32,893 nt of DNA, taken from contig JAMPDU010000017.1 of assembly GCA_023665505.1 (NCBI GenBank), forward strand, positions 1 to 32,893. The letters are read 5' to 3'. The notes beneath the pieces are model-generated. The model was not told the DNA's origin. It made no database searches and worked only from the letters and a program-made list of their open reading frames with translations. The translations under genes were made by a program, and so were the position numbers. The stretch comes from Ruminococcus sp. Its GTDB lineage: Bacteria; Bacillota; Clostridia; Oscillospirales; Ruminococcaceae. Shown piece by piece: positions 4,586 to 9,623 of the stretch (position 1 is its first letter; every line of letters starts with the position of its first letter).

Positions 4586-5407
4586 TTAAATTTCGTGTCC
4601 CAATGAGAACCGCCCCGCAGTCTGTATCTCTTTGGGCGTAAACAGCAGAACGTCGGTGGTAAGGGGGTTTTCCGCCTTTTTGTACTCCTCCAGAATAACC
4701 GTGCCAAGTCCCTCCAGAATGTCGTTGGTAATATTTTGCAGTACCAAAAGGCTTTCACGGGACGGCGCAACCACCAAAAACTTCGCCCCGAGACGTTCGT
4801 ACACCGCCGAGCGGAAATCGTTGCACAAAATAAGGGAGCTGCAAAAAGCGGGGCAGGACGTTTTAAAATCGAGAGTTTTAATGTCGCCGCTGATAATGTC
4901 CACCTCAATTTCGGTGTTGGAAAGAATTTTGCACATATTCCTGTCCGCCACCGAGAACGCCACCTCCCGTGGCACTCCCCAACGCCGCAGGGTAGCCTCG
5001 TCGAGAATGTGAATAACCTCGTTGTCGGGGCTGTACACCACCACTTTTTTAAGTCCCGCGGCGAAATCGGCGGTAATCATGTTCTCGTCCACGTCGCAGG
5101 GGCGCATAAGCATAAGCCGCAGGAACTCCTGCCCGTTGGTAAAGGAAACCATTCTCCCCTCGGTGGTAAAGTCCATTTCAAGCCGCTTGATGAGCTTGTC
5201 AAGCTCCTCGTCCGAGCGGGTTTCCTCGTAAATCTGCCTTGCCTCGCCGATGTCGATAACGAACACGGCAGAACCGTTTGAAATCTCGTAAGCGTCCTCG
5301 CCGATTTTTTCGGTTATGTGGTAATTCTGCCGTTTTAAAGCGTTTTTAAAGCCCGCCTCAAATTTGTCCTTAACGAAAAGCTCCGCGAATTTTTCCGCGA
5401 GTTTCAC
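4586..5407 (-). CDS. YtpQ/DUF1444-like protein
   Basis: This is a 273-residue soluble protein without signal peptide or membrane segment. The block order recalls the Firmicute DUF1444 (YtpQ) family: a basic N-terminal helix, a central HILDEATLRRWGV stretch, then LGAKFLVVAP and a C-terminal EEYKKAENPLTTDVLLFT. That family has no established biochemical role that I know of. The start is GTG at 5407, with AAAGGAGGG about 8 nt upstream. It is first in a three-gene run with the leucine-rich repeat and transglutaminase genes. The family call rests on remembered motif order, so it is moderate. Confidence 0.6.
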   Translation of the reverse strand: MKLAEKFAELFVKDKFEAGFKNALKRQNYHITEKIGEDAYEISNGSAVFVIDIGEARQIYEETRSDEELDKLIKRLEMDFTTEGRMVSFTNGQEFLRLMLMRPCDVDENMITADFAAGLKKVVVYSPDNEVIHILDEATLRRWGVPREVAFSVADRNMCKILSNTEIEVDIISGDIKTLDFKTSCPAFCSSLILCNDFRSAVYERLGAKFLVVAPSRESLLVLQNITNDILEGLGTVILEEYKKAENPLTTDVLLFTPKEIQTAGRFSLGHEI

Positions 5408-5424
5408 TTCTGCCGCCCTCCTTT

Positions 5425-5460
5425 TAGAAAATAGATTAACAGATGATAGAGAATAGAAAT
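5425..5460. repeat. Degenerate TAGAGAA-type heptamer tract
   Basis: This is an imperfect run of 7-bp units of the TAGAGAA/TAGAAAA type, with one 8-bp unit in the middle. It is related to the tracts at 7464-7491 and 10896-10930. It lies in the leader of the minus-strand YtpQ-like gene. Confidence 0.45.
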
Positions 5461-5473
5461 TACAATTATATTA

Positions 5474-5502
5474 ATTATAGCACATTTTTATTGATTTGTA
5501 CA
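5474..5502 (-). promoter_or_regulatory. Promoter of the 5407-1200 operon
   Basis: On the minus strand, TGTACA (5502-5497) and TATAAT (5479-5474) are separated by 17 bp. The -35 matches TTGACA at four of six positions and the -10 is perfect. The GTG start lies about 67 nt downstream. Confidence 0.6.
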
Positions 5503-5553
5503 GTATATTTTTCTGACAAATTTTCCCGTTCATAAAATGTTTACAATATAAAA

Positions 5554-5622
5554 TTGCAAAGTCTGCTTGACATTTTTTGCAAAGCGTGCTATACTAAAAT
5601 TGCAAAGCAGGCTTTACAATTT
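5554..5622 (+). promoter_or_regulatory. Three 23-bp-phased operator repeats over an XRE promoter
   Basis: The octamer TTGCAAAG starts at 5554, 5577 and 5600, exactly 23 bp apart. Each unit continues toward GCTTxAC, so each is an imperfect dyad; the best is GCAAAGC-AG-GCTTTAC at 5602-5617. The promoter TTGACA (5567-5572), 17-bp spacer, TATACT (5590-5595) is embedded: unit 1 covers the -35, unit 2 the -10 and unit 3 the likely start site. The probable ligand is the XRE protein encoded just downstream, acting as its own repressor. Confidence 0.75.
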
Positions 5623-5627
5623 TTTAA

Positions 5628-5702
5628 TGTAGGGCGGGGGCTCTGCTCCCGCCTTGTTGTACCGAACGTGTTGGAAAGGCGGGAGCAAGCCCCCGCCCTA
5701 CA
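5628..5702. repeat. GTAGGG-ended hairpin doublet R2 in a 5' leader
   Basis: Two facing hairpins of the GGCGGGGGC/GCTCCCGCC type are bounded by TGTAGGG and CCCTACA. The doublet lies between the promoter at 5567-5595 and the start codon at 5731, so it should be transcribed within the leader of the XRE operon. It is nearly the same as R5 at 10970-11046. Confidence 0.85.
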
Positions 5703-5730
5703 AAATTTGCGTGTATATTCGGAGGTGTAT

Positions 5731-5940
5731 ATGAAAACAAAAATACAACAGCTCCGCAAGGAACGGAAAATCTCCCAGGAGGAACTTGCCAACGCCGTGG
5801 GCGTGACAAGGCAGACCATAACCTCCCTGGAGTGCGAAAAATATACCGCGTCCCTTGTGCTGGCGTACAAAATCGCGAAATATTTCGGAATGACTATCGA
5901 GGAAGTTTTCGACTTCTCGGAGGTTTCCGACAACGATTGA
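5731..5940 (+). CDS. XRE-family transcriptional regulator
   Basis: This is a 69-residue single-domain helix-turn-helix protein. The QEELANAVGVTRQTITSLE stretch (residues about 17-35) is the HTH, followed by the IAKYFGMTIEEVFDF ending common in small Firmicute XRE repressors. Longer readings from upstream would run through the hairpin doublet. The ATG at 5731 is chosen because GGAGG lies 5 nt before it. The gene heads an operon with two small membrane proteins (gap 21 nt). It probably binds the three dyads over its own promoter (5554-5622); that link is inferred. Confidence 0.9.
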   Translation: MKTKIQQLRKERKISQEELANAVGVTRQTITSLECEKYTASLVLAYKIAKYFGMTIEEVFDFSEVSDND

Positions 5941-5961: not shown

Positions 5962-6405
5962 ATGGAAGATTTCAGAAAACAAGCCAAAAAAACCATTAAA
6001 ATTTGGACGGCTCTAATTATCGCCGCGATAATTCTGCGGATAGGGCTGGGAGCCGCCGTGTGGGCTAACGTCATACCGAAAGACGGCGTTAATTATAATT
6101 TCAGCGACGGCTTTTGCGCGGGATTAATTGTCCTTATGGCGGTTAATATTTCAAGATATACGGCGGCGTTAAAGGACGACGAAAAGCTGAAAAAGCTCTA
6201 CATCACCGAAACCGACGAGCGTTCGCGGCTTATTTACGAAAAGTCAAACTCATCGTCTTTCAGGACTGTAATTGTCCTTTTGGGACTTTCGGCAATGGTT
6301 GCCTCGTTCATTTCCGAGACGGTGTTTTTCACCCTGCTTGCCGTGATATTAGCCATTGCATTTATACAGGCGGGGTTCAGCTTTTATTACCGCAGAAAGT
6401 ATTAA
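5962..6405 (+). CDS. Small membrane protein with TDER motif (DUF2178-like)
   Basis: This is a 147-residue protein with four predicted membrane helices as two hairpins, separated by a charged cytoplasmic loop containing ITETDERSRLIYEKSN. The TDERxxxI motif recalls small membrane proteins of the DUF2178/DUF6442 type, which are often next to XRE regulators. No biochemical role is known to me. The ATG at 5962 is preferred, with AAAGGAG 8 nt upstream. It is related to the next gene (same helix-loop-helix layout and the same TDER and FYYRRKY/IYYERKY ending), so the two look like diverged duplicates. Confidence 0.75.
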   Translation: MEDFRKQAKKTIKIWTALIIAAIILRIGLGAAVWANVIPKDGVNYNFSDGFCAGLIVLMAVNISRYTAALKDDEKLKKLYITETDERSRLIYEKSNSSSFRTVIVLLGLSAMVASFISETVFFTLLAVILAIAFIQAGFSFYYRRKY

Positions 6406-6417
6406 GGAGGAAACACT

Positions 6418-6891
6418 ATGAAATACCAAAACGACCCCACAAAACCCGACTATAACCCCTCGCCGCAGGAACAGTTCAGATTTGATTACAATTTGAAAGG
6501 CAGCTGCGCGCTTACAATTTCAATCGTTATAAGCAACGCCGTTAGACTGCTTTTAAACAGCAGTACGGGCAAATTCGGGACTTGGTTCAATATCGCCGTA
6601 TCGGGCGTACTTCTGATATACGCCACAGTAAATTTGGCAAAGTTTTTCTACCTTGCGAAAAAACCCGAAAAGCTCGAAGAGCTTTACAGGCGGCACACCG
6701 ACGAGCGCAACGCCATGATACGCGAAAAGGTTGCGGGCGGCAGCTTTACCGCCGTGACGTACATAATCTGTATTGCAATGATGATTTTCGCCTATATCGA
6801 CATGCTGACGGCGTTCGTCCTTGCGGGGCTTTTATTGGCAATGCTGATTATACGGGTTTTGCTGAAAATTTACTATGAACGTAAATATTAA
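6418..6891 (+). CDS. Small membrane protein with TDER motif, paralogue
   Basis: This is a 157-residue membrane protein, a paralogue of the preceding one. A polar N-terminus of about 25 residues leads into two helices, a charged loop with RRHTDERNAMIREKV, and two more helices ending in YYERKY. AAGGAGG overlaps the stop of the previous gene and starts this one (12-nt gap). It is part of the XRE-controlled operon. One possibility is a heteromeric membrane complex with its neighbour; the substrate or signal is unknown. Confidence 0.75.
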   Translation: MKYQNDPTKPDYNPSPQEQFRFDYNLKGSCALTISIVISNAVRLLLNSSTGKFGTWFNIAVSGVLLIYATVNLAKFFYLAKKPEKLEELYRRHTDERNAMIREKVAGGSFTAVTYIICIAMMIFAYIDMLTAFVLAGLLLAMLIIRVLLKIYYERKY

Positions 6892-6905
6892 TTCCGTAAC
6901 GCGGC

Positions 6906-6980
6906 TGTAGGGGCGGATTCCATATCCGCCCGCGTGTTCGGAAACCGTTTCGGCGGGCGCATACGGGATGCGCCCCTACA
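6906..6980. repeat. GTAGGG-ended hairpin doublet R3a
   Basis: The left hairpin is GGGCGGAT/ATCCGCCC and the right hairpin is GGGCGCAT/ATGCGCCC, bounded by TGTAGGGG and CCCCTACA. It lies directly after the stop of the second membrane protein gene and could terminate that operon. Confidence 0.85.
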
Positions 6981-6998
6981 ATCGCGTATTTCAAAATT

Positions 6999-7062
6999 TG
7001 TAGGGGACGGGTTTCCCGTCCCGACGGCGCGTAACTGCGGGACGGGAAACCCGTCCCCTACA
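6999..7062. repeat. GTAGGG-ended hairpin doublet R3b
   Basis: Both arms are the GGGACGGG/CCCGTCCC hairpin, in opposite orientation, bounded by TGTAGGGG and CCCCTACA. The whole element is therefore also one large palindrome. Confidence 0.85.
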
Positions 7063-7088
7063 AAAATTAAAACACGTTCAATACGACG

Positions 7089-7114
7089 AGGCGGGAGCAA
7101 GCCCCCGCCCTACA
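7089..7114. repeat. Half hairpin element R3c
   Basis: A single GGCGGGAGC/GCCCCCGCC hairpin ends in CCCTACA. It equals the right half of R2 (5628-5702), which suggests that halves can be lost or exchanged. Confidence 0.75.
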
Positions 7115-7510: not shown

Positions 7511-8257
7511 ATGGCATCAGTTCTTGAAGTGCAGGGTCTTTCAAAAAAGTACCCCAAAAAAGAAAACCTTGCCGCCGACGGGGTCAGCTTTACCGTGAAC
7601 GAGGGCGAAATTTTCGCTCTTATCGGACCAAACGGCGCGGGGAAAACCACAACCATACGTATGATTTCCACCCTCATAAAGCCAACGGCGGGGGACGCTC
7701 TTGTGGCGGGTCACAGCATTGTGAAAGACCCCGACAAGGTTCGGGAAAATATTACCTACCTCCCCGACGAGGCGGGGGCGTACAAGACAATGAAAGGCAT
7801 CGACTACCTTAATTTTATGGCGTCCCTTTTCGCAAAGGACAAGGAAACCCTCGACAAATTTGTTGAGCGGGGCAAGGCTATCTGCGGACTGGGCGACCGT
7901 CTCGACGAGAAAATCGGCGGCTACTCCCGCGGTATGATAAGAAAGCTCCTGCTCGCCCGCGCCGTTATGACCGAGCCTAAGCTTGCCATTATGGACGAGG
8001 CAACCTCGGGTCTGGACGTTATAAACGCCCTGGAAATCCGCAAGATGATAAAAAATCTCGCCCGTGAGCAGCATATGTCTTTCCTGCTTTCCTCCCACAA
8101 TATGCTGGAGATTGAGTACGTCTCCGACCGTGTGGGAATTATGACCGGGGGCAAAATTATGGCGGTAGGCTCAATCGACGAGCTTAAGGAAAAGTACGAG
8201 GCGGAAAACCTTGAGGAAGTTTTTGAAAGGGTGGTAAAAAACAATGAAATTCGGTAA
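7511..8257 (+). CDS. ABC transporter ATP-binding protein (ABC-2/NatA-type)
   Basis: This is a 248-residue cytoplasmic ATPase of an ABC-2 exporter. Walker A is GPNGAGKT (39-46), the signature is YSRGM (about 138-142; the usual LSGGQ has drifted, as is common in NatA-like proteins), Walker B is LAIMDE (about 158-163) with SGLD after it, and the switch His lies in LLSSHNM. AGGAAAGGA lies upstream of the ATG. The 3' end overlaps the permease gene by 14 nt, which points to a fixed one-to-one pair. The substrate is unknown; NatAB-type systems move sodium ions or small molecules outward. Confidence 0.95.
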   Translation: MASVLEVQGLSKKYPKKENLAADGVSFTVNEGEIFALIGPNGAGKTTTIRMISTLIKPTAGDALVAGHSIVKDPDKVRENITYLPDEAGAYKTMKGIDYLNFMASLFAKDKETLDKFVERGKAICGLGDRLDEKIGGYSRGMIRKLLLARAVMTEPKLAIMDEATSGLDVINALEIRKMIKNLAREQHMSFLLSSHNMLEIEYVSDRVGIMTGGKIMAVGSIDELKEKYEAENLEEVFERVVKNNEIR

Positions 8258-9623
8258 TCTTCTTAAAAAGGAACTGAAAGAGCTTATAACGGTGCAGGCG
8301 TTGGTAAGTATGATTTTCACAATGGTGCTGCTTATTGTTATGGGACAGATTATGGGCGGCGCAATGGCGGAAAGTTTCGACACCTCCGAAATAACCCTCT
8401 GCAATCAGGACGACAGCGAGTTTACCGCCACCGTGCTGAAAAAAATAGACGAGTCCCAAAGTACCAATATAAATTACGTAACCTTTGAAAGCGACGACTA
8501 CGCCGCCGAGCTTGAAAGGCTTGACATCAAAAACGCGGTGATAATTCCGCAGGGGTACGGCGAGAGCCTTACCGAGAAAAAAGAACCCGCCCAAATAAGA
8601 TTTGTCAGCGTGATGTCTTCGTCGGGATTTCTTTCCACCATGAGCAGCGTGTCAAGCTCCGACGTTATCGACGAAATCCAAACCGTCTGCATGAACGAGC
8701 TTATGAGCGAGAATTACGGTCTTACCGAGCAGGAAATAGAGCTTATAAGAGAGCCTATGACAACGGTTGAGTACACCGTCCACAACGGCAGAACCGCCCG
8801 GATACCCGTTGCCGTTTTAAGCGCAATAACTATGATGCAGTCCTTTATTGCACCGTTTGCCATATTTTTCCTGCTGATGATGGCGTCGCAGATGATTATG
8901 ACGGCTATCTCCACGGAAAAAATCGACAAGACGCTGGAAACCCTGCTGTCCGCCCCCGTTTCGAGAATGACGGTGCTGTCGGCGAAAATGGTTGCGGCGG
9001 TAATTTCCGCTTTGCTGAACGCCCTGTTTATGATAGTGGGCTTTGCCCTCTATATGGTTGGAATGATGGGCAGCGCGGTAAGCGAACTTTCCTCCGCGGC
9101 AGGCTCAATGAACGTAAACGTCGACCCCTCCTCGGCGGTTGCGGGAATGTCCGGCGTAGGTCCCGCAATGGCGGAACTGGGTCTTACCCTTACGCCCCTC
9201 AGCTACGTGCTTTTCGCGGTACAGCTTTTCCTCACACTTGCAATCGGACTTGCCATTTCCCTTATTCTGGGCGCAATGGCGACGGACGTAAAATCGGTGC
9301 AGACCCTTACAATGCCCATAATGATAGCGGTAATGATACCCTTTTTCGTAACAATGTTTATGGACGTGAGCGCAATGTCACCCGTCTTCAAAATAATTGT
9401 TTACGCAATTCCGTTCACCCACACCTATACAGCCTTGACAAATTTAATGAACGGTGATATGATAGTATTTTGGGGAGGACTTGCCTATCAGGCGGTATTT
9501 TTCGCGGTATGTATGTTCCTTGCGGTGAGAATGTTCACCACCGACAGGCTGTTTACAATGTCCTTTTCGGCGGACAGTCTTAATAAGAAAAAAGGCAAAA
9601 ACAAGAACGTCGTTAATGAATAG
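8244..9623 (+). CDS. ABC-2 type permease (NatB-like)
   Basis: This is a 459-residue permease. One N-terminal membrane helix (about 20-38) is followed by a large extracytoplasmic domain of about 140 residues, then a membrane block of five to six helices starting with the amphipathic EKIDKTLETLLSAPVS coupling segment typical of NatB/YhaP-type permeases. The C-terminus is Lys/Asn-rich. It overlaps the ATPase gene by 14 nt. The product should pair with that ATPase as a homodimeric half-transporter. What it exports is not visible. Confidence 0.92.
   Translation: MKFGNLLKKELKELITVQALVSMIFTMVLLIVMGQIMGGAMAESFDTSEITLCNQDDSEFTATVLKKIDESQSTNINYVTFESDDYAAELERLDIKNAVIIPQGYGESLTEKKEPAQIRFVSVMSSSGFLSTMSSVSSSDVIDEIQTVCMNELMSENYGLTEQEIELIREPMTTVEYTVHNGRTARIPVAVLSAITMMQSFIAPFAIFFLLMMASQMIMTAISTEKIDKTLETLLSAPVSRMTVLSAKMVAAVISALLNALFMIVGFALYMVGMMGSAVSELSSAAGSMNVNVDPSSAVAGMSGVGPAMAELGLTLTPLSYVLFAVQLFLTLAIGLAISLILGAMATDVKSVQTLTMPIMIAVMIPFFVTMFMDVSAMSPVFKIIVYAIPFTHTYTALTNLMNGDMIVFWGGLAYQAVFFAVCMFLAVRMFTTDRLFTMSFSADSLNKKKGKNKNVVNE

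Follow-up and report, generated by a model that had tools for sequence, protein, structure and literature searches.

Small XRE autorepressors with a membrane partner are already known in kind, as are operators made up of several sites. In tripartite phage operators such as lambda OR, three neighbouring dyads with centres 23-24 bp apart carry HTH dimers over promoter elements, and lambda OR itself serves two divergent promoters and two proteins. The solved structure closest to the regulator described here is DR_2454 of Deinococcus radiodurans (9k3w; profile E 7.6e-24, 0.7 A), which differs in having Asn at position 31 and for which we know of no operator or partner. The closest characterised relative is CylR2 of the Enterococcus faecalis cytolysin operon (1utx), a 66-aa XRE protein with the same fold (E 7e-11, TM-score 0.82) that works on a toxin operon with overlapping divergent promoters; it has Asn where the XREs studied here have Thr or Ile31. 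CylR2 pairs with the small membrane protein CylR1, which is thought to pass the signal (PMC3709268). A further likeness, drawn from its description, is to the membrane-bound bacitracin regulator BcrR, which combines DNA-binding and membrane parts beside an ABC exporter but does so in one polypeptide that mediates induction, whereas at our locus the XRE and the membrane protein are separate genes.

The locus lies in a 32,893-nucleotide stretch of Ruminococcus sp. DNA, referred to here as the window. On its forward strand the gene for a 69-aa XRE protein (5731..5940) heads an apparent operon with two paralogous membrane proteins carrying the TDER signature, namely DER-motif membrane protein 1 (147 aa, four helices, 5962..6405) and DER-motif membrane protein 2 (157 aa, 6418..6891), which share 33% identity over 93 aa, and three operator-like sites span the promoter of this operon much as an earlier sequence-only reading had described. 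In contrast to CylR2, the promoter here drives the XRE gene together with its own four-helix DER proteins and has the three sites built into its boxes; in contrast to lambda OR, there is one promoter and one protein, with the -35 and -10 boxes serving as half-sites.

The repeated element TTGCAAAG starts at 5554, 5577 and 5600 of the forward strand exactly as had been read and has no other copy on that strand of the window. We read the dyads as 18-bp 7-4-7 units of the type TGCAAAG-N4-CTTTGCA, giving putative operator site 1 (TGCAAAG TCTG CTTGACA, 5555..5572), site 2 (TGCAAAG CGTG CTATACT, 5578..5595) and site 3 (TGCAAAG CAGG CTTTACA, 5601..5618), all on the forward strand, separated by A/T-rich 5-bp spacers and together covering exactly 5555-5618. 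The dyads are indeed imperfect, with half-site symmetry of 6/7 in site 3, the best palindrome of the three, 5/7 in site 1 and 4/7 in site 2. The lower symmetry of sites 1 and 2 comes from their right halves doubling as the consensus-matching -35 box (TTGACA, 5567..5572) and -10 box (TATACT, 5590..5595) of the same strand; CTTGACA and CTATACT are both degenerate forms of the CTTTRCA that makes up the right arm of site 3. The promoter is a near-consensus sigma-A promoter with 11/12 consensus matches, a 17-bp spacer into which the left half of site 2 falls, and a TG ahead of the -10 box, and the inferred transcription start at around 5602 is covered by site 3; the proposed placement of -35, -10 and start in units 1, 2 and 3 thus holds. 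Three adjacent dyads at regular spacing are also what characterises a lambda-type operator. Site 3 alone in the genome matches TGYAAAGNNNNCTTTRCA in full, and the pair motif with 23-bp spacing occurs once in the 3.17-Mb genome, at this locus. Single sites were not enriched in the same genome (60 matches against 108 for the reversed control), so no further targets are visible there, and we rejected a large own-genome regulon on the same counts.

The 23-bp period had been taken as about two helical turns, letting three dimers bind side by side. At 10.5 bp per turn, 23 bp corresponds to 2.19 turns, which rotates successive sites by around 70 degrees, so that they do not share one face of the DNA. 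For sites 1 and 2 the period is simply one hexamer plus the spacer (6+17) and is therefore set by the promoter geometry.

Between site 3 and the ribosome-binding site the leader contains a palindromic repeat element of about 75 bp (5629..5703, no strand assigned), which recurs at around 40 positions genome-wide (80 strand matches) and forms a 27-bp hairpin in the transcript. Because this repeated palindrome is interposed, the distance from the -10 box to the start codon is long, 135 nt vs a median of 45 nt in relatives. Palindromes similar to this element also fill 6905-7110. Further downstream on the forward strand lie the ATPase (7511..8257) and permease (8244..9623) of an ABC-2 exporter, listed as neighbours with no operon membership implied.

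The XRE protein belongs to Pfam HTH_3 (51.7 bits against a cutoff of 23), and its AlphaFold2 model (pLDDT 92.4) shows the five-helix HTH fold with helices at residues 5-11, 16-23, 27-34, 42-52 and 56-59. The model superposes on DR_2454 (9k3w) and CylR2 (1utx) with 0.7-0.8 A rmsd, and as a stand-alone XRE of the 65-70-aa class whose closest characterised relative is CylR2 we refer to it as CylR2-like. The HTH and the membrane helices are encoded in separate ORFs (5731-5940 and 5962-6405), an arrangement distinct from the single polypeptide of the BcrR type.

The membrane proteins are harder to name. Pfam and NCBIfam gave no usable name for the two proteins of the window. The membrane protein model is of the four-helix type (pLDDT 94), compared with three predicted helices in CylR1, and a search for a solved fold found none (best E 1.1). 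An alignment with the membrane proteins of relatives shows a common D-E-R motif after helix 2. The sequence-only reading had called the operon DUF2178-like, and this label did not hold, since neither window protein scores above threshold for DUF2178 (PF09946) although some relatives match the profile weakly; among 51 aligned membrane proteins there were weak matches to DUF6442 in 9 and to DUF2178 in 4. When DUF6442, DUF2178 and DUF3796 proteins are considered together, the window's own two proteins are above threshold for none of them. A likeness to DUF2178 does appear on Priestia plasmids, where a protein annotated as DUF2178 accompanies a related XRE.

In order to follow the promoter-operator beyond this genome we searched a genome collection with a 41-bp pattern comprising sites 1 and 2 with both boxes and leaving out site 3. 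At least 120 loci matched (counted as genome records, near-duplicates included), and the matches listed are mostly from Firmicutes and mostly Clostridia, among them Ruminococcus, Blautia, Clostridium, Acetobacterium, Streptococcus, Granulicatella and metagenome bins labelled Kosmotogales/Thermotogae. A homologous XRE of 65-70 aa lies directly downstream in 115/120 matches listed, three of the other five being incomplete loci, and in 103 of those 115 two or more membrane helices are predicted in the ORF that comes after the XRE, usually a four-helix DER membrane protein. The reversed control of the pattern gave no match in 394 genomes of the order. An origin of the three sites by chance or as a low-complexity repeat, a reading to which the A/T-rich spacers lend some colour, is vanishingly improbable against these counts and against the absence of any equally spaced (12-40 bp) triple 8-mer in 5000 dinucleotide-preserving shuffles of 5401-5740; on the shuffles, the pattern matches and the conserved loci picked by membrane protein we excluded it. 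We likewise rejected a phage origin, as viral contigs contained no match to the operator pattern.

Although outside the search pattern, site 3 was present in 116/120 matches listed, at +23 in 96, +24 in 9, +32 in 8, +20 in 2 and +22 in 1. Its profile, which is therefore free of search bias, reads TG(C/T)AAAG-N4-CTTT(A/G)CA with a strongly conserved left half. The eight loci at +32, a 9-bp displacement (L051, L055, L065, L093, L108, L123, L146 and L153), are at least partly a Ruminococcus flavefaciens group, and this offset from site 2 is close to three full turns.

A second view came from loci chosen by the membrane protein alone with no selection on the DNA. A search of 199 family genomes recovered membrane protein 1 homologues in 32, and 28 loci selected in this way had an identifiable XRE upstream. 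The phasing, whose loss in close relatives would have spoken against the original claim, is retained at exactly 23/23 bp in 19/28; site 3 is shifted to 20 or 24 bp in two, sites 1 and 3 only are present in four (at 46, 46, 47 and 44 bp), and sites 2 and 3 only in one. The remaining two, with the most diverged XREs (51% and 39% identity), have a different palindrome: at L028 and L031, whose recognition helix reads SARTIIS, GAAGTTTACTTC-type palindromes lie upstream of the XRE gene instead, which suggests a third specificity class. A free-gap search with CTTGACA-N0-20-TGYAAAGYNNRC across 299 family genomes returned 57 matches, of which 30 had the 23-bp spacing exactly and no more than 4 shared any other. 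Two further arrangements were seen in passing. A close relative (L097) carries a second degenerate promoter-operator on the reverse strand at an offset of ~2318, some 340 bp upstream of the primary copy. The genome of the window itself has a second XRE operon (L034:1423-1690), whose TTGACA-17-TATTAT promoter carries two TGTAAAA/G half-sites at a distance of 21 bp; its XRE has Asn as residue 31, and genes for several membrane proteins come after it.

These spacings bear on whether the dimers would bind cooperatively. The same sites and repressor could operate with no cooperativity, each dimer binding singly and the 23-bp period arising from the overlap with -35, -10 and start, and we regard this version as a serious possibility, if somewhat short of even. 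It draws on the identity of 23 bp with the distance between the two boxes (6+17), on the rotation of neighbours by ~70 degrees at this period, on the four relatives that lack site 2 and on the occurrence of site 3 at +20, +22, +24 and +32, the +32 variants in particular arguing against a strict need for interaction. It accounts less readily for the outer sites staying 44-47 bp apart when site 2 is lost, or for site 3 sitting at exactly +23 in 96/120 matches listed with no promoter box to fix it there; the kept 46-bp outer spacing and the +23 preference of site 3 together argue for some interaction. The spacings are thus ambiguous on this point, and cooperativity between the dimers is possible.

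A link between the XRE and the sites comes from co-variation. Base 3 of the half-site is C or T and is nearly always the same across all sites of one locus. Over 137 loci, C accompanied Thr31 in 71 and Ser31 in 1 while T accompanied Ile31 in 65, with no exception; one locus beyond the 137 has mixed sites and Thr31. The XRE of the window is of the Thr31 type. Residue 31 lies inside the modelled recognition helix 27-34, at a position that we take to face the DNA from a comparison with the aligned 434 repressor and lambda Cro. The right half of site 3 follows more loosely, with A in 59/60 T-type and G in 43/55 C-type loci. The match of C/T with Thr/Ile follows deep clades to a large extent and its phylogenetic independence is thin: the best trees contain 5-6 Thr/Ile switches, all of them concordant, the supported branches force only 1-2, and the AU test rejects a single T-type origin by a narrow margin (p=0.047), leaving at least two switches, tree resolution being poor because the XRE is short. 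We therefore rate the link between residue 31 and base 3 as a strong correlation and, read as a causal code, as moderately strong.

As base 3 tracks residue 31, we connect the sites with the XRE encoded next to them. The co-variation could partly reflect shared ancestry, which would leave room for the sites to serve another regulator with the neighbouring XRE a bystander; given the XRE downstream in nearly all of the matches listed and the agreement across the 137 loci we consider this most unlikely. Instead the three sites are, with high probability, the autorepression operator of the 69-aa XRE, each dyad taking a CylR2-like dimer, and the protein very probably represses the membrane-protein operon to which its gene belongs. 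The sequence-only reading had arrived at cooperative autorepression. What it held about the sites across the XRE promoter, the operon and the phasing stands and is joined by the XRE-site co-variation; the phase of sites 1 and 2 is already dictated by the 17-bp spacer, site 3 tolerates other offsets, and the DUF2178 assignment falls for the window proteins.

In the mechanism we propose, one CylR2-like XRE dimer would bind each 18-bp 7-4-7 dyad, and three dimers would tile about -47 to +17 and so close the promoter, keeping the XRE and the two membrane proteins low. Since sites 1 and 2 have the boxes as their right half-sites and the start lies under site 3, repressor and sigma-A RNA polymerase would compete for the same DNA. 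One could alternatively picture the XRE as mainly an activator or a dual regulator of this promoter, as BcrR, a membrane-bound regulator of the XRE type, mediates induction of its target (PMC3968067, PMC10269533). All three sites, however, overlap promoter elements including the -10 box and the start, and with near-consensus boxes, a 17-bp spacer and a TG, activation would be neither needed nor sterically easy, which makes this very unlikely. Under autorepression the gene order and the analogy to CylR1 make the membrane proteins natural candidates for the sensor: one or both would most likely sense an envelope signal and then release or sequester the XRE, and this release would induce the operon and, in some genomes, the ABC exporter. 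A related ABC ATPase is located downstream on the same strand in 18/79 loci with enough sequence. In two genomes (G569 and G570; L193, L194, L199 and L200) a T-type triple operator lies directly before an ABC ATPase, and on a different contig the triple operator recurs ahead of a small membrane ORF and the gene for an Ile31 XRE. This two-copy arrangement speaks for a repressor that controls its own operon and, in certain lineages, an exporter as well.

Our literature searches, made in an incomplete library, found no description of the operator-promoter, the residue-31 code or the DER proteins, and searches for the motif letters and for DUF6442 or DUF2178 with XRE returned nothing relevant. We lean, by a modest degree, towards a widespread and undescribed two-gene membrane signalling module, formed by a CylR2-like XRE and a four-helix DER protein, in which the promoter boxes are operator half-sites at 23 bp and residue 31 (Thr or Ile) would set the base (C or T) as a natural one-residue, one-base switch. 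What began as an isolated motif becomes a conserved regulatory module in at least 120 genome records. Its putative promoter-operator, where polymerase and repressor would read the same bases, is naturally compact in design. The module lends itself to testing how small XRE repressors select their DNA (Thr31/Ile31 vs C/T) and how the uncharacterised DUF6442/DUF2178-like DER proteins may signal to a soluble repressor.
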